Shown one piece after another: positions 12,983 to 32,559 of a stretch of 44,884 nt of DNA (the stretch's first letter is position 1; the number at the start of each line of letters is the position of its first letter). Source of the DNA: Candidatus Cloacimonetes bacterium HGW-Cloacimonetes-1 (lineage in GTDB: Bacteria > Cloacimonadota > Cloacimonadia > Cloacimonadales > Cloacimonadaceae); NCBI GenBank assembly GCA_002841975.1, contig PHBQ01000013.1, positions 1 through 44,884 of the forward strand. The letters are read 5' to 3'. A program made the translations under genes and the position numbers. Below the pieces are notes generated by a model. That model was not told the origin of the DNA, searched no databases, and was given only the letters and a program-made list of their open reading frames with translations.

Positions 12983-14565
12983 TGCGATATCCCCGCATTA
13001 CTGACTCTTGTCGCCTTAATGGGATTGATATTAAAATAGCCTGTCGACTCAATAATCATATTAGGATGCCCCAAATACTGATAGTCTTCTCTATCCAGTA
13101 TTTTGGATTGAATCAGTGGGATATCCACCGTCCCAAAATAGTTCATTGTTGCATCAACATCAAACAGGTTCCAAGCTATTAGATAGAGGAACACTTCCTG
13201 AGAGAGAATATTGTTATTGTGAATAACAGGTTGACAGTTAGTATAGGTAGCACCCAAATCAAAACCGACCATTATACCCATTTTCGAAGTGATCAAATTG
13301 TAATCAATTGTCGGGATTAACTGATGACCACAAACTCGTATGTCATATCTATCGCTGGAGTCAAACACATTGTGATGAATTCGTGTCTCTGAAGCATATG
13401 ATTCACTTGCATATCTGTTTCTGGAAAAATAGCAATTAGAGACTTGACCATAACACAAATCCTTAACCTTCACTCCACTTGAGTTATTTAAGACTATGGA
13501 GTTTTTAATGTTTACACTCTGGCATCCAATAGTGTAAAAGCCTGCATACGATGTGAATAGGCCATCTATATTCTCACGAATGTTCATGGCTATACAGCGG
13601 TCAACTACTACAGAAGTACCTTGATTAAAGGTAATCCCGGCTGTACTGTTTCTAACGATACAGTCAGTAACTACAGAGGAGCTATTATTGACGCGCAAAC
13701 CATTAGTAGAATTTTCGATAATGCACTTCCTCAAATCCACATCTCCAAAAACCTGAATCTCATTATATCTATTACTCAGCTCACCGATCGCAGAATTAGA
13801 AGTGATCAAAGAGAACTCGCCGTTACCATTATCTTCGGAAGACAGATTTCCTGTGACCGTTAAATTCTTATTAGTAGCAACATTAACACGGCTCCCGTTC
13901 TCAATAATCAAGTTTCCGGATATTGTTAGATTATCGTTGATCAGATAACTCTTATCACGTTTAAATCGATAATCACCCACAATAGTTCCAGATAGTACTT
14001 TTACCGGATACAATGTAAGCACGTTCTCATTTCTATAGATCTTATTTGGTTGTGGATTAGCTTTGTTTGGAATCCTATCAAGTAAGGTGTTTTCACCCTT
14101 ACTTATGCTGAAATTATAGGCACAATGAAGCCCCCACCCAGATTTGGACAAGAGAACATTGTAGCGTCCTACCGGAATATCCTCAATTTTAAAAGTACCA
14201 TCCGTACTGGCAATAACTGACTTTACAGGTTGAGCATTTCTATGATCAAATTCTGTTTCTTGGCTGATTTGCACACCAACATTCGGGTACTCACGATTGA
14301 TCCGGACAATAGTAGTATCAAGCTCTGCCAATGGATATAAGGCTACAGTTACTCCACTAAAATCTATAGGATCCAGGAGAGGGTCGCCGGTATCATTTAC
14401 TAATTCAACTCGTCCACTTAGGGAGCCTACTTCAGGGGATGTGGAAGATGAGCACGACATAATGAAAAGTAAAGAAGCTGCCAGAAGCAAACATAGTATC
14501 AACCTTATGTGGCTAAGACCTCGTTGGTTGCATTTAAATGTTTCTTGTGTCGCATTAAGATACAT
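12979..14565 (-). CDS. beta-helix lipoprotein with N-terminal regulatory-like domain
   Basis: This protein of about 528 residues begins at the ATG at 14565, which has a strong AAAGGAG site, and carries a lipoprotein signal ending FIMSC (Cys38). Residues of about 47-150 form a carboxypeptidase-regulatory-like beta-sandwich (SLSGRVEL, GVTVALYPL, GTFKIEDIPVGRYNVLLSKSG). The rest is a right-handed parallel beta-helix of the NosD/pectate-lyase type, with rungs such as VTDCIVRNSTAGI and VSNCYFSRNRYA. It is the first gene of the long glycan operon and should sit on a membrane facing the periplasm or outside. Beta-helix proteins in such places act as lyases, epimerases or binding scaffolds; no catalytic residues can be assigned here. 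Confidence 0.85.
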   Translation of the reverse strand: MYLNATQETFKCNQRGLSHIRLILCLLLAASLLFIMSCSSSTSPEVGSLSGRVELVNDTGDPLLDPIDFSGVTVALYPLAELDTTIVRINREYPNVGVQISQETEFDHRNAQPVKSVIASTDGTFKIEDIPVGRYNVLLSKSGWGLHCAYNFSISKGENTLLDRIPNKANPQPNKIYRNENVLTLYPVKVLSGTIVGDYRFKRDKSYLINDNLTISGNLIIENGSRVNVATNKNLTVTGNLSSEDNGNGEFSLITSNSAIGELSNRYNEIQVFGDVDLRKCIIENSTNGLRVNNSSSVVTDCIVRNSTAGITFNQGTSVVVDRCIAMNIRENIDGLFTSYAGFYTIGCQSVNIKNSIVLNNSSGVKVKDLCYGQVSNCYFSRNRYASESYASETRIHHNVFDSSDRYDIRVCGHQLIPTIDYNLITSKMGIMVGFDLGATYTNCQPVIHNNNILSQEVFLYLIAWNLFDVDATMNYFGTVDIPLIQSKILDREDYQYLGHPNMIIESTGYFNINPIKATRVSNAGISH

Positions 14566-15047
14566 GATATGCTCCTTTACTTGTGACCAATCCACAGCTT
14601 CGCCCCATCGCTTACAGTTCAATGTCCATAAGCTCTATCGGGGAAATACTGGCGTTTAGATTATATTTAGACGGGGGAACTTGTTGATGATTGGAAGGAT
14701 TGAGCTGCTGTAAAAAATACTGGTTGAGATGGGATTATTGGCGTAGTGCATAATAGTAATCAAATGCTTTCGCCCAAGTTTCTGTATATTTCTTGCATAG
14801 CAATCTATCATTATTCCAATCACTTACTTATCTAATTTTGTAGTGAACCAACCTCTAGTATTGAACCTAATCTGTCAAATGTTTTTTTGGTCATACAACC
14901 GACAAAAACTCTGGGTAGTTTCCTTGTTGCAGCCTTGTATTGCTAATATCTGTTCATTGAAATAGAAGTAACAATGCAACTCTGACGTCTCCACGTAGTT
15001 GTGCGATATAGATACATCATTCCCCTGCTTTCACTTGCGAACATCTA
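14566..15047. other. A+T-rich intergenic region with a short coding-like remnant
   Basis: This 480 bp stretch between the glycan operon and the 148-residue protein gene has no full gene. Besides the candidate promoter, the minus strand from about 14826 to 14735 has 30 open codons reading DWNNDRLLCKKYTETWAKAF and onward to a stop. Its aromatic, charged composition looks like the tail of a real protein, but no start or family was found, so it may be the end of a lost gene or chance. Confidence 0.35.
14660..14687 (-). promoter_or_regulatory. candidate promoter of the glycan operon
   Basis: On the minus strand a perfect TATAAT (14665-14660) lies 16 bp after TCAACA (14687-14682), which matches the -35 consensus at four of six positions. 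The start of transcription would be near 14653, giving a leader of about 88 bases before the lipoprotein ATG. It is the only good -10 box in the gap and would serve the whole minus-strand operon. Confidence 0.4.
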
Positions 15048-15494
15048 TCATATCTGACTTTGCATCTCTAGATAGCCTGGCACTTTCTCCAGTAATCCGG
15101 CATCAATTGCCCTGGCAAGTGTGAGGCATGGAATGCTCTCTGCGATAATCTGATCTCTAGTCAAAACAGTGTAATCAATGTCTGGATAATCTGTTTTTAA
15201 CCTCATCAAGATGCGCATCAGTACATTGAGCCAGGAATTCAAGGCTCTGCCCCTACGTCGGTTTTGTTGATTGTAGAGACTGATATAGCGTCGGCAATCC
15301 TCTTTGTAAGCATCCGACACTGCTATCCTCTTGATAAACGCATGGATATCACAGAATGTAGTATTGGGTGGAACTCTGCGGGGCATCACCTTTTTTCTGG
15401 CGATCAGGCAGTTGAGCCGTGAATTGTAATAAATTACCATGTCGTCCATATTCCCGGCAAAACCCGGAAGAGCCAGTTTGACCTTTGCTTTCAT
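15048..15494 (-). CDS. hypothetical protein of 148 residues
   Basis: I do not recognise this protein. The ATG at 15494 follows a strong GGAGG site, so translation is likely; a longer frame back to 15596 crosses the promoter and is rejected. The N-terminus KAKVKLALPGFAGNMDDMVIYYNSR is followed by a basic stretch (ARKKVMPRRVPPN) and then a mostly helical segment with many Arg and Lys residues. The opening, a G-x-x-G-x-x-x-x-x-V-x-Y-Y pattern followed by a proline-rich basic strand, faintly recalls small DUF6266/phage-like proteins, but this is only an impression. It is a single-gene unit with its own promoter, next to a repeat-rich region. Confidence 0.7.
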   Translation of the reverse strand: MKAKVKLALPGFAGNMDDMVIYYNSRLNCLIARKKVMPRRVPPNTTFCDIHAFIKRIAVSDAYKEDCRRYISLYNQQNRRRGRALNSWLNVLMRILMRLKTDYPDIDYTVLTRDQIIAESIPCLTLARAIDAGLLEKVPGYLEMQSQI

Positions 15495-15537
15495 GTTTCC
15501 TCCAAACAGTTTAGCGAGCAAGCGCTCATATTTAGTG

Positions 15538-15566
15538 ACACTATCAAAAAGCTGATTTTTTGTCAA
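15538..15566 (-). promoter_or_regulatory. candidate promoter of the 148-residue protein gene, with internal inverted repeat
   Basis: On the minus strand a perfect TTGACA (15566-15561) is followed after 17 bp by TAGTGT (15543-15538), a weak -10. The spacer contains the inverted repeat CAAAAA-atcagc-TTTTTG, which could be an operator. The gene's ATG lies about 44 bases downstream of the -10 box. Confidence 0.45.
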
Positions 15567-15652
15567 GCATTGTGAGTGGCGCTTATTTGCGCACAATTGA
15601 TCGGCATAGCATGAGATACCGTAAGTTACTGCTTTTCAATGGAATAATAGCC

Positions 15653-15690
15653 ACCCTCACCCCAGCCCTCTCCCAGAACGGGAGAGGGAG
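15653..15690. repeat. GC-rich hairpin repeat (CCCTCTCCC type)
   Basis: CCCTCTCCC and GGGAGAGGG form a perfect 9 bp stem around the loop AGAAC, preceded by CCCTCACCCCAG. Sequences of this kind are widespread as intergenic repeats in many bacterial genomes. A decayed copy is at about 16326-16349. There is no T-tract, so it is not a standard terminator. Confidence 0.6.
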
Positions 15691-15830
15691 TTCATTTGGT
15701 TTAATAGTCACACGGATTTCTTTACTCCGTTATACATTAAATCAATGGAATATGGCGATGTTGTGGCGTCCTAGCGGATTCTTTTCGGTTTTAGGGCATT
15801 GCTCTGAAGTAGTGTACAGGCTTTGATTTG

Positions 15831-15933
15831 TGTCGCCCGTGAAGGGCTCTGTCGGGGAGTGGAACCATAACGAGGGTCTTCGTGCCTGCGGCACTCCGAA
15901 CCCGTCGCTATCGGATGTCGCCCACGAGGGGCT
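15831..15933. repeat. dispersed element of about 103 bp, copy 1
   Basis: This copy matches 33650-33752 at roughly nine of ten positions over the same length without a gap. Both ends carry the same short motif, TGTCGCCC followed after about five bases by GGGCT, which can form a GCCC/GGGC mini-hairpin. The centre includes the shared block AACGAGGGTCTTCGTG. No open reading frame runs through it. Confidence 0.75.
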
Positions 15934-16389
15934 AATCTGGATTTCAAAATTCCCGCTATAGGGACTTTTTCAGCAGACTTACCCGTTTTAACGGGTAACG
16001 GATTACAGGCGTTCGATTTATCCCACGTACCGAGAAATGTGCCAACCTCAAACCGGTGCTAACCGGTGGCGGACTTTGGATGGGATTTCAATCCCCGTCT
16101 TTTCCCCAATGCCTTCACATAACATGCTACGTTAACCACTATATCGCATCTATATAGGCAAGAGTGATACACCTCTGATTCCCAAATCGAGTTTGGAATG
16201 ACGACGGTTTCAGGGCAGCGTATACTTTGAGTGAAAATTCCGGCGACGAATATTGAACATAGAACTGTGTTCTATCTGCAGATACGAAGATCTGCAAATC
16301 CCGTAGTTGGCTTAGTCAACATTCTTCTCTCCCAAAATGGACGAGGGAGTAGAAATATCCGCTTCCGACCTTCTCCTTCCTTATTGAGA

Positions 16390-16454
16390 TATGGCTATGA
16401 TGTGGCTATGCCGCCCCATGAATCATAGGGCGGCATATCCACATCATAGCCACA
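16390..16454. repeat. long palindromic element, copy A
   Basis: Two 32 bp arms (16390-16421 and 16423-16454) are almost perfect reverse complements around a single central base, with the centre CATGAATCATAG. The arms share the core GATGTGG-TATGCCGCCC with the element at 32473-32559. Outer sequence on the right (CACAACTAAGTA) also matches that copy, while the left flank has decayed. It ends about 28 bases before a TTGACA and 88 bases before the microprotein gene. Confidence 0.8.
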
Positions 16455-16481
16455 ACTAAGTAGGAGGCGAGTAATCTGCGC

Positions 16482-16542
16482 TTGACAGATTTGTTCGGGC
16501 ATTGGAGATTGAACTCCAGTTTTTTGGAATATTGGAGTTTCG
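16482..16542 (+). promoter_or_regulatory. leader of the acyl-shuttle operon with alternative hairpins
   Basis: A perfect TTGACA lies at 16482-16487, but the expected -10 (GAGATT at 16505-16510) is poor, so the promoter is uncertain. Hairpin 1 pairs TGGAG (16503-16507) with CTCCA (16514-16518) and is followed by six T (16520-16525). Hairpin 2 pairs AACTCCA (16512-16518) with TGGAGTT (16533-16539), which contains the GGAG ribosome-binding site of the microprotein. The two cannot form together. Confidence 0.3.
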
Positions 16543-16701
16543 ATGAAATGGTTTACCAGACTTTTGGATAATAAGCCGCTAGTAGCGTTTTTCTTGAAAT
16601 ACACCACGCTGTTTTTCATCCTATTCATGACGGTCGGATTATCGGCACTACTCAAGATCATCAATACTGAGAGCAATCCGTTCTTTTATGCGAATTTCTA
16701 A
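16543..16701 (+). CDS. DltX-like membrane microprotein with C-terminal acyl-shuttle motif
   Basis: This small gene encodes 52 residues, with a GGAG site five bases before the ATG. It has a short basic N-terminus (MKWFTRLLDNKP), one transmembrane helix (about residues 13-36) and a C-terminus ending exactly in FFYANF. FxYxxF at the extreme C-terminus is the signature of DltX, the microprotein of teichoic acid D-alanylation, whose tyrosine accepts the acyl group from the MBOAT protein outside the membrane and passes it to the serine of a second transferase. The DNKPLVAFFLKY start also resembles DltX (N-K-P before the helix). It is the first gene of a unit with kbl, ACP, MBOAT and SGNH genes, which fits that role well. 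The call rests on the motif, the topology and the neighbours. Confidence 0.8.
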   Translation: MKWFTRLLDNKPLVAFFLKYTTLFFILFMTVGLSALLKIINTESNPFFYANF

Positions 16702-16750
16702 ACTACTACAGTCACTATTCCGGTAAATATCAGTTTTATAAGGAGAGCTT

Positions 16751-17998
16751 ATGTCTTACAATCAGAATCTCAAAGATAAGTATTGCGATATTTTGAACAA
16801 TCTCAAGTCGAGCGGACTTTTTAAACAAGAACGCCTGATTACTGGCCCCCAAGACGCCGTCATCAATGTAGAATTCCCAATTGGTACTCCCGAAATGCAA
16901 GTGATCAATATGTGTGCCAACAACTATCTGGGTCTCTCCAGCCATCCCGACATCATCCAGGCTGCACATCGCGGATTGGATGAATGGGGCTATGGTATGT
17001 CTTCCGTGCGTTTTATCTGTGGAACTCAAAGTCTGCACAAAGAATTGGAGAAAGTAGTCACAGAATTCCTGGGCACAGAGGATACCATCCTCTTTAGCTC
17101 GTGTTTTGACGCCAATGGTGCAATTTTTGAGGCAATCCTGGACGAGCATGATATCATGATATCAGATCGCTTGGTACATGCTTCCATAGTGGATGGAATG
17201 CGCCTCGCCAAAGCTCAGCACGACACTTACAAACATAGCGACATGGCTCACTTACGCAAAAAACTGGAGCAACATAAAGACTACCCCCGCAAATTGATCA
17301 TCACCGATGGTGTATTTTCGATGGATGGCGATGTGGCAAAACTGGATGAGATAGTAGCCTTGGCAGAGGAATTTGACGCCATGGTATTTGTGGACGATTC
17401 GCATGCCTCCGGATTCATGGGCAAAACCGGAAGAGGAACTCATGAGCTATGCAATGTCATGGGCAAAATCGATATCATCAGCACAACTTTTGGCAAAGCC
17501 TTGGGGGGAGCTTCCGGTGGCTGTATCTCCGGAAGGGCAGAATTGGTTGAGATGCTACGTCAAAAGGGAAGACCATACCTATTTTCCAATACCCTTGCCT
17601 CTGTGATTACGGCTGCAACTCTGGAAGTATTCAGGATCCTGAACAAGAGCACTGAAAGGCGTGATAAACTGGAACAAAACACGATTTACTGGAGAAAGGG
17701 ACTTTCTGAATTGGGCTTTGTCCTGAAAGAAGGTGATTCCCCCATAGTTCCCGTGATGCTCTTTAATGCCAAATTGGCTCAGGAGATATCCTATGACCTC
17801 TACCAGGAAGGCGTCTATGCTATCGGCTTTTTCTTCCCTGTGGTAGCACAAGGACAAGCCCGCATCCGCACTCAGCTTTCAGCAGCTCATTCCACAGCTC
17901 AATTGGACAAAGCTCTGTTGGCTTTTAAAAAAGTAGGCAAGAAACACGGAATTTTGGGACTCAGCAAAGAACAATTGATCGAGAAATACGGTCTGTAA
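16751..17998 (+). CDS. kbl: 2-amino-3-ketobutyrate CoA ligase (glycine C-acetyltransferase) homologue
   Basis: This 415-residue PLP enzyme is a close full-length match, from memory, to E. coli Kbl. The active-site residues line up with a constant offset of five: His143, Asp215, His218 and the PLP lysine Lys249 in TFGKALGGASGG. SVRFICGTQ, ITDGVFSMDGD and RPYLFSNTLA are also family blocks. Kbl interconverts glycine plus acetyl-CoA and 2-amino-3-oxobutyrate plus CoA. It is normally paired with threonine dehydrogenase (tdh), but no tdh gene is near. Here it sits between the DltX-like microprotein and the acyl carrier protein gene, in the place where a dlt operon has the DltA ligase. AAGGAGA precedes the ATG. 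It may load the carrier protein or make a special acyl donor; alternatively it is an ordinary Kbl that happens to be here. Confidence 0.9.
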   Translation: MSYNQNLKDKYCDILNNLKSSGLFKQERLITGPQDAVINVEFPIGTPEMQVINMCANNYLGLSSHPDIIQAAHRGLDEWGYGMSSVRFICGTQSLHKELEKVVTEFLGTEDTILFSSCFDANGAIFEAILDEHDIMISDRLVHASIVDGMRLAKAQHDTYKHSDMAHLRKKLEQHKDYPRKLIITDGVFSMDGDVAKLDEIVALAEEFDAMVFVDDSHASGFMGKTGRGTHELCNVMGKIDIISTTFGKALGGASGGCISGRAELVEMLRQKGRPYLFSNTLASVITAATLEVFRILNKSTERRDKLEQNTIYWRKGLSELGFVLKEGDSPIVPVMLFNAKLAQEISYDLYQEGVYAIGFFFPVVAQGQARIRTQLSAAHSTAQLDKALLAFKKVGKKHGILGLSKEQLIEKYGL

Positions 17999-18039
17999 AC
18001 TATCAATAACAATGAAATCTAAATATTAGGAGCATATAA

Positions 18040-18270
18040 ATGGAACAGAAATTAATAGACTTTATCACAGAAGAATTCCTCTCGGACGATGACGACCCTA
18101 TCACCACCCAAACCAAACTGATCTCCAGCGGACTGATTGACAGCTTTTCCCTGGTCTCCTTGCAGACTTTTATCGCCAAAGAGTTTGGGAAAAAAATCCC
18201 TGCTCCCAAAATTACCGCTCAGAGCTTTGATACAGTAGCACAAATGATGGAGATTATCGATCAGTTCTAA
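18040..18270 (+). CDS. acyl carrier protein (DltC-like)
   Basis: This is a 76-residue helical carrier protein. GLIDSFSLV contains the phosphopantetheine attachment serine, Ser35, in the D-S motif. Charged helix 1 (KLIDFITEEFL) and the short C-terminal helix (VAQMMEIIDQF) fit the PP-binding fold. It is DltC-sized and not close to the fatty-acid AcpP, whose site usually reads DSLD. AGGAG lies before the ATG. It sits 42 bp after kbl and 38 bp before the MBOAT gene, so it most likely carries the acyl or aminoacyl group that the MBOAT protein exports. What is loaded onto it is unknown; no adenylating ligase is encoded nearby. Confidence 0.88.
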   Translation: MEQKLIDFITEEFLSDDDDPITTQTKLISSGLIDSFSLVSLQTFIAKEFGKKIPAPKITAQSFDTVAQMMEIIDQF

Positions 18271-18307
18271 AGACAAATTGTCTGTGTTTGGCTTATAAAG
18301 GAGCAGT

Positions 18308-19459
18308 ATGTTCACAAATGTTCTCTATTTCCCATTCCTGATGGTCTCTGCACTGATCTATTGGTTATTGCCAAAACGTGGACTCAGGACAGGGTTTTTA
18401 AGCCTGTGCAGTCTTGCCTTTATCTGGCACTTTGATCCCAAGGCTCTCTATGTAGTGCTCGCTCTCACGCTGTTTACTTATGGCATGGCCCTGTTAATGG
18501 TGAGATCTCAGAGACAGCAGTTGTATCACAGCATCGGCTTGTTGGGATTGCTGCTGGTTCTCATTGCATTCAAATATCTGGGATTCTTGACGGAGACAGT
18601 TAACGGCTTGACTAGCTTCGTGTCCAGTCTCCCGCAGTTTGAGATCGAAAAGTTATTCCTACCACTGGGTTTATCGTACATTATCTTCAAATATATCAGC
18701 TACTTAACAGATATCATGTGGGGTATCGTGAAACCCGGAAGGTTTATCGACTTCCTCTGCTATGGTTCTCTTTTTACAACCTTTGTAGCCGGACCGATCG
18801 AGCGTTTTGAAAGACTGAAGCCACAGCTAGAGTCACCCCGAGACCGCTTTCAAGTCAATCATTTGGAAGTGGCATTCTTTCGTATTGTAATAGGTCTATT
18901 CAAAAAGCTCGTGATTGCGGACTGGATGGGCTACTTCATCAATCCCATTTGGCAGCACCCCAGCGAGTATTCAGCCATCATCCGGGTCGCAGCACTGTTT
19001 GGTTATTCCATGCAGATATACTTTGATTTTTCAGGTTATAGTGATATAGCTATCGGCTCTTCCAGACTCTTTGGATTGACTATTATGGAAAATTTCAATA
19101 ATCCATATTTCGCTCCAAACATTAGTCAATTCTGGAGAAGGTGGCATATCTCATTATCCGATTGGATTCGTGATTATTTATTCTTTCCTTTGTCACAAGG
19201 ACGCTCCAGCAAATTGTGGCTCACATTATTCGTGCCTGTCATTGCTATGGGTTTATGCGGATTGTGGCACGGCGCAGCATGGCATTATATGATCTGGGGA
19301 GTATGGCATGGGATCGGAATTGCTATCTATCAATATTGGAACCAGTATAAACGCGCTCACAAAAAGAGAATGGGCTGGACAAAGGCAAAATGGGCTAACA
19401 ATCTGGGGATATTGATGACATTTGTCTATGTGACCATTGGATGGTGGTGGTTCAGATGA
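18308..19459 (+). CDS. membrane-bound O-acyltransferase (MBOAT, DltB/AlgI-type)
   Basis: This 383-residue membrane protein has about ten hydrophobic segments. FWRRWHISLSDWIRDY (around residues 275-290) and GLWHGAAWHYMIWGVWHG (318-335) are the two MBOAT signatures; His321 is the likely catalytic histidine. The protein stops right after its last membrane helix (GWWWFR), so it has the length of DltB and lacks the extra C-terminal part of AlgI/PatA, where a shuttle motif can be fused. That agrees with a separate microprotein carrying the motif. AAAGGAG precedes the ATG and the stop overlaps the SGNH gene as ATGA. Base composition shifts to higher A+T in the last third, as in the next gene. Confidence 0.93.
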   Translation: MFTNVLYFPFLMVSALIYWLLPKRGLRTGFLSLCSLAFIWHFDPKALYVVLALTLFTYGMALLMVRSQRQQLYHSIGLLGLLLVLIAFKYLGFLTETVNGLTSFVSSLPQFEIEKLFLPLGLSYIIFKYISYLTDIMWGIVKPGRFIDFLCYGSLFTTFVAGPIERFERLKPQLESPRDRFQVNHLEVAFFRIVIGLFKKLVIADWMGYFINPIWQHPSEYSAIIRVAALFGYSMQIYFDFSGYSDIAIGSSRLFGLTIMENFNNPYFAPNISQFWRRWHISLSDWIRDYLFFPLSQGRSSKLWLTLFVPVIAMGLCGLWHGAAWHYMIWGVWHGIGIAIYQYWNQYKRAHKKRMGWTKAKWANNLGILMTFVYVTIGWWWFR

Positions 19460-20451
19460 AGAAAATACTACTATTGAGTCTGTCAATCTTCCTTGCTCTT
19501 GTAGCTACTGAACTGACTGTTAGATATGTTATTGGCTATCCTAGCTATACTCCTGGTAACAGGCAATATATCTCCTCAGATCATTTAAAAGACTATCGGA
19601 CTATTACTTGGAAGGCTCCTTATAGTAAATTCTGGAGTGTTGAGGGAGGGAATCAAGTCTTTCGTTACAATAATATCGGACTTCCCGGAAGTGATATTGA
19701 CACCAACTTCGATAAAAGTATATTCTTACTAGGTGACTCTTTTATTGAAGCTCTGCAAGTTCCGAACACTAATACTGCAAGTGCTGTTTTTCAAGATAAC
19801 CTTATAGCAAACAACCGCTCTTTTAATGTACTGAATCTTGGATCATCTGCTCATGATCCATTCGTACTTTGGCATCGTTCCATGTTTTTTGCTCAACATT
19901 TTCGTCCTTCTACAGTTATTCTGGTATCTGAAAGCTACTCCACAATGATGCTATATTTAAAGAGACACACCCTACCACTAAGATTTTACACTCATGACAG
20001 TTTTGGCTCAATAATTCCTCCTAATATGAGAAAAATTTACATCGACCGGGTAAGATCACTCTCAGCATTTTTAACTCTATGTACAGTGTTCAAAGACAAA
20101 AGGGATGATACTCTCAAACAAGTTGACGATTCAATTGCCAAGATTCCGAGTAACCCGGATAGTATTAGTTTATTGTTCGAGTGCTTAGAGCAATTTGATG
20201 AAACTTATGGTGATAAATTTGTATTTGTATCACTTATGAATGACAATCCTCACGAGAAAGAGCTTGCAGAATTCTGCACAAATCAAGGCATCAAGTATTT
20301 TCAGAATAACCAGATTATGAAACCATACAATCAAATACATGGTGAAGGTCATTTAAATGAAATAGGAAATCGCCAGCTAGGAGTTTACTTATCAAAGACA
20401 TACATGACATTGTATCAAACAGATAACAAATTGAGATCTCTTGGCGAATAA
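19456..20451 (+). CDS. membrane-anchored SGNH-type acyltransferase (DltD/AlgJ-like role)
   Basis: About 331 residues with an N-terminal signal anchor (KKILLLSLSIFLALVATEL). FLLGDSFIEAL is the SGNH block I, with nucleophile Ser95; NLGSSAHDP may be block II, and HGEGHLNEIGN (His299) is block V. The usual Asp three residues before that His is a Gly here. Such proteins beside MBOAT genes accept the acyl group from the shuttle tyrosine on their serine and pass it to a glycan in the periplasm. The start is the ATG forming an ATGA overlap with the MBOAT stop. The gene is clearly richer in A+T than kbl or the downstream operon. A fragment related to its C-terminus lies 100 bp downstream. Confidence 0.82.
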   Translation: MKKILLLSLSIFLALVATELTVRYVIGYPSYTPGNRQYISSDHLKDYRTITWKAPYSKFWSVEGGNQVFRYNNIGLPGSDIDTNFDKSIFLLGDSFIEALQVPNTNTASAVFQDNLIANNRSFNVLNLGSSAHDPFVLWHRSMFFAQHFRPSTVILVSESYSTMMLYLKRHTLPLRFYTHDSFGSIIPPNMRKIYIDRVRSLSAFLTLCTVFKDKRDDTLKQVDDSIAKIPSNPDSISLLFECLEQFDETYGDKFVFVSLMNDNPHEKELAEFCTNQGIKYFQNNQIMKPYNQIHGEGHLNEIGNRQLGVYLSKTYMTLYQTDNKLRSLGE

Positions 20452-20548
20452 TTGGATAACATTCAATTTTCACAAAGTATAACCCAATCTTGATCTGATT
20501 AACACAGTACCAGACAGGTATCTGTCTCAAGACATGATGATTTGATTT

Positions 20549-20677
20549 AATTCGCTCAGCTGTGTCCCCTTAATCAAGCTGGAGCACGTGTTCCACGGAG
20601 CCGGCCACCTCAATACCCCCGGCAATCAGGCACTGGGTATTGAACTGTATAAATGCTTCCAAACTCACATCAATTGA
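20549..20677 (+). pseudogene. 3' remnant of a second SGNH acyltransferase gene
   Basis: An open frame to a TGA at 20675 reads LEHVFHGAGHLNTPGN followed by QALGIELYKCF. It aligns with the C-terminus of the intact SGNH protein just upstream (IHGEGHLNEIGN, then RQLGVYL), sharing HGxGHLN, the GN pair and the LG pair. It has no start, no upstream SGNH blocks and a higher G+C content. The simplest reading is the leftover tail of the original gene after replacement by the present A+T-rich allele. The left limit is approximate. Confidence 0.7.
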
Positions 20678-20726
20678 TGCAATAATACCACCGGCTGCAG
20701 ACACAACTATAAAATTCCGATTTTCC

Positions 20727-20755
20727 TTGACACCGCATCCCTTTCGTGATCTAAG
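20727..20755 (+). promoter_or_regulatory. candidate promoter of the second glycan operon
   Basis: TTGACA (20727-20732) is followed after 17 bp by TCTAAG (20750-20755), which matches the -10 consensus at four of six positions. Transcription would begin near 20762, leaving a leader of about 25 bases that contains the AAAGGA site before the deacetylase ATG at 20788. Confidence 0.5.
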
Positions 20756-20787
20756 GGTATGCACAAGAATTGGCAAAAGGAATAGCA

Positions 20788-22455
20788 ATGATCTCCGTAT
20801 TTATTGATTATAAATTAGAACGTTATAAACGGGAAATCAAATACACCTTTGATTTCATTTTCCACACTTTGGGTTACAGCCATCGCTATGTGTCGTCCCC
20901 TGAAAAGCTGAAGGACAATGACATCCTCTTTATCTACGGCTTGGCAGAGCCGGAACTCGAAGAGCTGATCCCCATTGCCAAGCAGTACATCACCCTGTTT
21001 GTACAGGCCAACACCAATCTTTATGACCATCGTGCTATGACGCCGGACAAACTGCGCCGTCAACTGCGCGAAATCAAGCTGCTCAGCGCTACTCCAGTCA
21101 TCTCGGAACGCAAGTTTGACGTCCCTGCGGAAAACTATTCCGAAGCGGATATCAATGCCGGCAAGATCAATTTTGACCTCGTGGGAAACCTATTTTTTCA
21201 CCTGGCAGATTTGGAACCCTTGATCGACAATCATCGTGATCTCCACGGCTTTTTCCCCGAAGATGCCAGCGCCTTTTATACCTGGAAAGATACTCCCTTC
21301 ATCGACAATCTGTTGTGGCTGGTGGACAGCATGATCAAGGAACACACCCGCTCCAAAAAGCAGTACATTGTCCAAAAACACTATTGGCCGGAAGGACAGC
21401 AAGCCGCAGTTACGCTCACTCATACCGTGGACGACCTCCAAAAGTGGGACTTTAACAGCCTCATCCTTTCCGTGATCGACGATATGGTGATGTTTGCGAC
21501 GCTCAAATGGCAACAGCTCTACCGCAATATCTGGAGCAAAACCAAATACCTCTTTACCAACTACGAAATGTATTGGAATTTTGACGAATATCGCAATATA
21601 GAACGCGAATACAATTGCAAATCCACCTATTTTATCGCTGCGGAACAATCCCCGGATCTGGACTATTCTCTGGATGATCCGGATCTGCAGGAAGAGATTG
21701 CCAGTATCCTGCGCGAGGGACACGAAATCGGGCTTTTGACCACCGACGACAAGCTGAATCGGGACGACTTTGTCACGCGTAAACAGATCATGCTGCATCA
21801 GATTCACAAAGAGCAAATCGGCATCCGTCAATATGGATACCACGTGAACGAAGCCCTGCGAGATTTGCACCTGAAACTCGCTCCTGCTTACGACAACAGC
21901 AGTGCCTTTCAGGATTGTCAAGGATTCAAAGGTGGCTTTTCTGTGCCGTACTACCCTTGGATAACTGCCATTAAGGCAAATTTTGTAGCCTTGCCGACGC
22001 AGTTCCGGGATCGTTTTTTACGCGTCAACAAACACAGCTTTCTCCAGCTCGACGATGCCAAGCATCAGTTCAAGAAAATCTTCCAAAACACCCTGCGCAC
22101 CCGCGGCGTGTTCTGCTGTGATTTCTCGCTCGCCGGCTATTCCGAGATTCCCTTTTGCAACAAATTGTACGAGTATATCCTGGCTTTGATCCAGACCAAT
22201 AAAGTGTGGCAAACCAACGGTTCCGAGATCGCCGCATGGTGGGATAAACGCAGTCGTATCACCATCGAAGAGAGTGAGTACGAGATCAGCGTCTATTTCC
22301 CTGATGCCGTGGACAATTTTGTCCTGCAGATTTTTAACGATTTTAAAATAGCCGAGATCGTGGGCAATTCCGGGAAAATCGATGGCAACAGCATCGCGTT
22401 TTCCAATGTGAAAGCCGATACCTATGCCATGATCCGGCTCCAGCAAAATACTTGA
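20788..22455 (+). CDS. polysaccharide deacetylase-like protein (DUF7033/NodB type), degenerate metal site
   Basis: About 555 residues. The N-terminal region (MISVFIDYKLERYKREIKYT, then FDFIFHTLGY) looks like the DUF7033 domain found before NodB-like domains in Bacteroidetes-type surface clusters. The middle has the deacetylase order: AVTLTHTVDDLQKW, STYFIAAEQSPDLDYSLDD and REGHEIGLL. In active relatives these read THDVD and GHEIGLH; here the first motif is shifted and the histidine is replaced by Leu, so metal binding may be lost. A C-terminal beta domain of about 70 residues follows. I use the ATG at 20788 with AAAGGA; an in-frame TTG at 20770 lies too close to the promoter. It is the first gene of a four-gene plus-strand operon. 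Confidence 0.75.
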   Translation: MISVFIDYKLERYKREIKYTFDFIFHTLGYSHRYVSSPEKLKDNDILFIYGLAEPELEELIPIAKQYITLFVQANTNLYDHRAMTPDKLRRQLREIKLLSATPVISERKFDVPAENYSEADINAGKINFDLVGNLFFHLADLEPLIDNHRDLHGFFPEDASAFYTWKDTPFIDNLLWLVDSMIKEHTRSKKQYIVQKHYWPEGQQAAVTLTHTVDDLQKWDFNSLILSVIDDMVMFATLKWQQLYRNIWSKTKYLFTNYEMYWNFDEYRNIEREYNCKSTYFIAAEQSPDLDYSLDDPDLQEEIASILREGHEIGLLTTDDKLNRDDFVTRKQIMLHQIHKEQIGIRQYGYHVNEALRDLHLKLAPAYDNSSAFQDCQGFKGGFSVPYYPWITAIKANFVALPTQFRDRFLRVNKHSFLQLDDAKHQFKKIFQNTLRTRGVFCCDFSLAGYSEIPFCNKLYEYILALIQTNKVWQTNGSEIAAWWDKRSRITIEESEYEISVYFPDAVDNFVLQIFNDFKIAEIVGNSGKIDGNSIAFSNVKADTYAMIRLQQNT

Positions 22456-32472: not shown

Positions 32473-32559
32473 CCTTACTTAGTTGTGGTAATGATGCGGC
32501 TATGCCTCCCTATGATTCATGGGGCGGCATAGCCGCATCATTACCACAACTAAGTAAGG
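32473..32559. repeat. long palindromic element, copy B
   Basis: Two 43 bp arms (32473-32515 and 32517-32559) are reverse complements except for two positions, around one central T. The ends read CCTTACTTAGTTGTGG. The inner part matches copy A at 16390-16454. As RNA or single-stranded DNA it would form a very long hairpin. It ends 11 bases before the -35 box of the following mscS-type gene. Confidence 0.88.

Follow-up and report, generated by a model that had tools for sequence, protein, structure and literature searches.

A 52-amino-acid open reading frame (ORF) at the head of a five-gene operon in the window (the whole stretch of DNA analysed here, 44,884 nucleotides) is a real, conserved gene, and we consider it highly likely that its product serves as a free-standing acyl shuttle in an MBOAT/SGNH system for surface O-acylation that is fed by a carrier protein, the acyl-tyrosine chemistry being argued by analogy. 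The very probable task of the microprotein is to move acyl groups across the membrane for decoration of the sugar coat, the job of DltX, here performed in Gram-negative-type bacteria and from an operon other than dlt. A published account describes non-Dlt MBOAT/SGNH pathways as having neither a carrier protein nor a DltX-like microprotein (PMC12148441), and we found no carrier-protein-fed non-Dlt MBOAT/SGNH system in the open-access literature searched. In Cloacimonadota and Ignavibacteria-type genomes both the acyl carrier protein (ACP) and the microprotein occur outside Dlt, together with a different loading enzyme. The gene also illustrates how a component that its pathway probably cannot do without may, at this small size, go unnoticed in operon annotation.

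Operon layout and gene content

The operon is a + strand run of five genes encoding the microprotein, a Kbl-type enzyme, an ACP, an MBOAT and a membrane-anchored SGNH protein, with gaps of 49, 41 and 37 bases between the first four; its neighbours are glycosyltransferase and polysaccharide genes. The features are as follows.

16534–16537, + strand: GGAG ribosome-binding site, 5 bases ahead of the microprotein ATG, read directly
16543–16701, + strand: 52-aa single-helix microprotein, probable DltX-like acyl shuttle (from the ORF, its relatives, selection and hydropathy)
16681–16698, + strand: codons of the C-terminal FxYxxF motif (FFYANF), read directly; motif residues invariant in 21 copies
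16751–17998, + strand: Kbl-type PLP enzyme (glycine C-acetyltransferase / 2-amino-3-ketobutyrate CoA ligase), 415 aa (TIGR01822, 7bxp)
18040–18270, + strand: 76-aa acyl carrier protein, DltC-like, with DSF motif and phosphopantetheine Ser35
18308–19459, + strand: short MBOAT, 383 aa, DltB-like (TIGR04091, 6bug/8jem, predicted fold)
19441–20451, + strand: predicted SGNH-type membrane-anchored acyltransferase, 336 aa (predicted fold, family conservation)

The microprotein ORF runs from an ATG at 16543 to a TAA stop at 16699–16701 and encodes MKWFTRLLDNKPLVAFFLKYTTLFFILFMTVGLSALLKIINTESNPFFYANF, with Tyr49 specified by TAT at 16687–16689. An initial sequence-only reading had described a GGAG site, one membrane helix and an exact FFYANF end, all of which are read at these positions. 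The single hydrophobic segment spans residues 22–40 (best 19-residue Kyte-Doolittle mean 2.23), and the net charge of +3 on its N-terminal side and -1 on its C-terminal side fits an N-in/C-out topology. For the SGNH gene, which overlaps the end of the MBOAT gene, the first ATG is used as the start; a second ATG, at 19456, also overlaps the MBOAT end.

Just 5′ of the microprotein, at 16382–16462, lies an inverted repeat with 40-base arms that are 85% complementary and separated by 1 base; a third, imperfect copy of its core is found at 32522–32544 on the - strand. Rfam gave no match in 14500–21000, the inverted repeat included. On the 3′ side of the SGNH gene, 20770–22455 encodes a 561-aa protein with a weak DUF7033 match, and a similar protein of 559 aa follows a fused-type operon (see below) in another genome, G046 (L137:6932-8611).

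Relation to dlt operons

The microprotein resembles DltX in its length of about 50 aa, its one helix and its exact C-terminal FxYxxF with an invariant tyrosine and, as in dlt, its neighbours are a DSF carrier protein, a DltB-type MBOAT of the short kind and an SGNH-type protein anchored in the membrane. The earlier statement that it ends as DltX proteins do stands with respect to the proposed mechanism but not with respect to family membership. The DltX Pfam model PF12459, which did recover true DltX genes in Bacillota, gave no match to the window microprotein at E ≤ 1 or to three of its relatives at E ≤ 5, and the alignment with this family that had been suggested was confined to the 8 terminal columns NPFFYANF (hhalign, 21 versus 3 sequences, probability 8%). 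Because the protein is so short, the absence of full-length DltX homology is weak evidence. Pfam and NCBIfam scans of the microprotein, and a profile search with nine microproteins against solved structures, likewise returned no match.

The window MBOAT scores 204.7 bits against the DltB model TIGR04091, below its cut-off of 375; its nearest solved structures are nonetheless DltB (6bug/8jem, E = 1e-39), its predicted fold (pLDDT 82) matches DltB best (TM 0.80), and its conserved His280 and His321 align with DltB His289 and His336 (numbering from PMC11035591). The ACP motif GLIDSFSLVSL contains the DltC-like DS(F/M) serine, with a score below the DltC cut-offs. For the SGNH protein, a Pfam scan gave no match, DltD included; its predicted model matches SGNH esterases such as TesA with probability 1.00 (a moderate model, pLDDT 63, used for fold class only), and G-x-S100, N132 and H304-x-N are invariant. 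The elements of an MBOAT/SGNH system are present: an MBOAT with the invariant histidine, an SGNH partner and an FxYxxF motif that the charge pattern would place at the outer face.

Could this be a divergent D-alanylation (dlt) operon whose proteins esterify a surface polymer with D-alanine or a different amino acid, DltA being encoded at another locus? Microprotein, ACP and short MBOAT are laid out as in dlt, DltB is the closest match of the MBOAT in both sequence and predicted fold, and in a relative (L144) a DltA-like enzyme feeds an ACP-MBOAT-SGNH operon. We nevertheless regard this explanation as unlikely, as the SGNH protein lies outside the DltD family, the microprotein fails the DltX model, and a long, fully supported branch parts all DltB rows from all of these MBOATs. 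Three AMP-binding proteins were found in the window's genome (99% complete), none with DltA among its best models: two resemble long-chain acyl-CoA ligases and one the ligase part of acyl-ACP-phospholipid acyltransferases. Membership in a dlt operon was rejected on the missing DltA and DltD-family SGNH protein; the window operon further differs from dlt in containing Kbl, and its type of microprotein, unlike DltX of dlt, occurs in Cloacimonadota and Ignavibacteria-type bacteria.

The motif is separate beside short MBOATs and fused to long ones

The MBOAT of the window has neither a C-terminal extension nor an FxYxxF motif of its own, and the shuttle motif sits on a separate protein because this MBOAT is short, in agreement with the sequence-only reading. 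The two arrangements, hereafter split and fused, proved strictly complementary. MBOAT searches with the window excluded gave seven complete short MBOATs (G041:C33, G002, G012, G053, G092, L004 and L005/L176), and every one adjoins an FxYxxF microprotein, L004 and L005/L176 being from other phyla; all 28 complete long MBOATs that were checked, by contrast, end in their own FxYxxF and none has a microprotein nearby (7/7 versus 0/28, Fisher p = 1.5e-7, relatedness ignored). Several microprotein copies came to light through the microprotein itself; these do not test co-occurrence independently. In a survey of Cloacimonadota with the window MBOAT as query, six complete short MBOATs, the window's among them, end where DltB ends, and a microprotein shares the locus of each. 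From that survey, 19 long MBOATs (L118-L136), and likewise the long members L099, L137, L138 and L139 of the window MBOAT's own subfamily, have the exact FxYxxF end and no microprotein, and the extension adds two hydrophobic segments (hydropathy checked for the latter four).

The second MBOAT of the window's own genome (G000:C66) is of the long, fused type and ends in FIYFQF. In G045, a Kbl-ACP-MBOAT-SGNH operon (L099) shares with the window the Kbl type, the ACP family and an MBOAT about 51% identical; unlike the window, it has a fused tail (FIYAGF), no microprotein and an SGNH protein of another family. In the MBOAT tree, one supported clade of 20 contains split and fused forms intermixed (14 split, 4 fused), at least 4 changes between the forms occurred overall, and the sister of the window MBOAT, L137, is a fused form (support 97/95).

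Shuttle form and SGNH type go together: the SGNH proteins of split systems form one family (365–424 bits for the full-length ones beside short MBOATs), whereas neither those of fused systems nor two DltD proteins match the split-system profile (≤7.6 bits). The SGNH protein of L176 scored 12.5 bits against this profile.

A proposed microprotein acyl shuttle

Acyl-tyrosine has been demonstrated on the FxYxxF motif of both DltX and PatA, and PatB accepts acetyl from acetyl-FIYANF (PMC12148441). The PatA/PatB pair is likewise an MBOAT/SGNH pair with FxYxxF, and the FIYANF of Neisseria gonorrhoeae PatA is one residue apart from the window's FFYANF. The systems differ in that PatA carries the motif on the MBOAT itself, takes acetyl-CoA as donor and uses no carrier protein, whereas the window encodes a carrier protein and has the motif on a protein separate from the MBOAT. 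Because the published acyl-tyrosine motif differs by only one residue, we propose a route from acyl-ACP through the MBOAT, Tyr49 and SGNH Ser100 to a glycan, acylation of Tyr49 being inferred from DltX and PatA. The microprotein helix would lie N-in/C-out beside the short MBOAT, with its FFYANF tail entering the outer funnel of the MBOAT. The MBOAT would pick up the acyl group on the inside, from the ACP's phosphopantetheine arm, and load it onto Tyr49; the acylated tail would then swing to the SGNH protein, whose Ser100 would pass the group on to a surface glycan, the product of the adjacent glycosyltransferase genes. Kbl may charge the ACP by thiolysis of 2-amino-3-ketobutyrate.

A structural or regulatory role, in which the microprotein stabilises the short MBOAT and its motif docks in the funnel without being acylated, seems to us very improbable. 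A regulatory role of DltX and DltD is treated as possible in the DltB structure paper (PMC11035591), but the residues that are invariant here coincide exactly with the catalytic shuttle motif, the tyrosine included, and the same motif is fused to long MBOATs and is acetylated on tyrosine in PatA.

Conservation and distribution of the microprotein

The sequence-only reading had presented the ORF as a gene, and its relatives confirm that it is one. Intact same-family copies were recovered by tblastn (E = 3e-11, 1e-10, 2e-10 and 2e-8), all of which reach the exact C-terminus. The relatives, which are present in other Cloacimonadota and in Ignavibacteria-type genomes, have 40–60 residues, end exactly in PFxYxxF and adjoin short DltB-like MBOATs. 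Across 21 of 21 intact copies, P46, F47, Y49 and F52 are invariant and no residue follows the last phenylalanine, which settles the suggested check of the tyrosine and the C-terminus. Upstream of kbl, where a comparison had also been suggested, frame and terminal motif are kept in two other genera (L038, L039), and they are kept as well beside short MBOATs without kbl. The dN/dS ratio is 0.03–0.19 (seven pairs with estimable dS; dS was saturated in nine further pairs).

This conservation is stronger evidence for a real gene than an estimate of chance ORFs, for which small ORFs (35–110 aa) ending in FxYxxF were counted in dinucleotide-preserving shuffles of the window (3 in 60 shuffles, or 0.05 per window); the real window has one, immediately 5′ of the Kbl-ACP-MBOAT-SGNH run. 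That the frame is open by chance and untranslated is hardly credible. In favour stands the expectation of 0.05 such ORFs per window; against it, many genomes keep the frame, its position and its exact C-terminus, and its codons show purifying selection.

A profile search revealed further copies within Cloacimonadota and found the microprotein in 8 of 294 genomes of the class of an Ignavibacteria genome. With wider sampling, 2 of 395 genomes in the phylum of G125 had it, both previously known. In the phylum of G126, none of 398 genomes exceeded the threshold, a result that says little because the known L176 copy in that phylum fell below the threshold as well. Weak matches in about 40 further Cloacimonadota genomes (E 1e-3 to 0.1) were treated as chance; they are mostly partial, short of the motif or inside long frames, and the best weak match (G059, E 3e-4) lies out of frame within a 1923-aa gene. 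The majority of loci come from draft metagenome assemblies.

Some loci depart from the usual arrangement. In L037 (9712-10382), an intact microprotein precedes a chimeric ORF, in which a Kbl N-terminus is joined to an apparent dTDP-glucose dehydratase C-terminus, the result of a recent deletion or an assembly join; a short MBOAT was not found in this genome. G012 has a second microprotein (ending REPFIYVGF; L041:8165-9370) directly 5′ of an SGNH gene of the window's SGNH family, with no MBOAT in the surrounding 16-kb stretch; it may share the other short MBOAT of that genome. Three genomes (G125, G307 and G339; L164-L165, L171-L174) have two or three split systems each. In G125 and G307 a carrier-protein gene lies beside only one of these, so the ACP may be shared among split systems.

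Loss of the tyrosine in a replaced system

Loss of the frame or of the terminal motif in a close relative had been named as grounds for giving up the sequence-only reading, and we found one such case, in G007 (L040). The microprotein there reads MKIINRLL...IIATESNTIF-stop-VNF-stop: the frame is kept up to the motif, the tyrosine codon is TAA, and the proline and first phenylalanine are changed. Downstream, KASIII, ACP, SDR, a 467-aa MBOAT ending in FLYYKF and an SGNH gene (family names taken from the homologous L143 genes) replace the Kbl-ACP-short MBOAT set. The exception supports the shuttle idea, because the motif is lost just where the replacement MBOAT brings its own. Together, the natural switches between separate and fused forms and this pseudogene with its lost tyrosine constitute evolutionary evidence for the acyl-tyrosine shuttle model.

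Charging of the carrier protein and the acyl group

The window Kbl matches TIGR01822 over its full length with 554 bits (cut-off 493) and 7bxp with E = 4e-135, and it keeps the PLP lysine motif. It is a member of a second class of Kbl paralogues (about 540–570 bits, compared with 606–653 for housekeeping copies that are complete), one accompanied by a dedicated carrier protein. The gene lies between microprotein and ACP in the window, L038 and L039, and ahead of the ACP in L099 and L166. Kbl was rejected as a core part of the machine, being absent from many split operons (L002, L003, L004, L094, L164-L165, L168-L175). Some split operons have no adjacent carrier protein (L004, L094, L165, L175), which for these must come from elsewhere or be unneeded.

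The closest relatives of the window Kbl and ACP sit in acetate-CoA-ligase-ACP-Kbl cassettes of several genera. These cassettes (L098, L101-L106; for example L098:5357-8591), with an acetate-CoA ligase, an ACP and a second-class Kbl, are conserved in several Cloacimonadota genera and often adjoin an ordinary kbl, which suggests acetyl-ACP metabolism around threonine and glycine. Acetyl is common to all three enzymes, which makes acetyl-ACP the simplest donor to suppose; it stays a guess because many split operons are without Kbl. The acyl group is most likely small, acetyl being the best, if speculative, candidate and the role of Kbl equally speculative. A more complete scheme can be offered tentatively, and we give it somewhat less than even weight: a diderm surface O-acetylation in which Kbl would charge a dedicated ACP with acetyl from threonine-derived 2-amino-3-ketobutyrate, for transfer through the short MBOAT and the tyrosine of the microprotein to the SGNH protein, and in which separate and fused shuttle forms would have replaced each other in evolution together with the SGNH partner.

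The ACP is an input that these systems have in common, since fused-tail relatives feed it by other enzymes (KASIII plus SDR in L040, L143, L145 and L146), and which acyl group is transferred probably depends on the loading enzyme. These KASIII-ACP-SDR-MBOAT-SGNH cassettes (L040:3197-7575, L143:1144-5494, L145 and L146) carry a fused FxYxxF, are ACP-fed outside dlt and possibly transfer a 3-hydroxyacyl group. Another locus, L144 (3571-7729), has a dlt-like set consisting of a DltA-like adenylation enzyme (197 bits against TIGR01734), an ACP, an MBOAT with fused FIYFQF and an SGNH protein.
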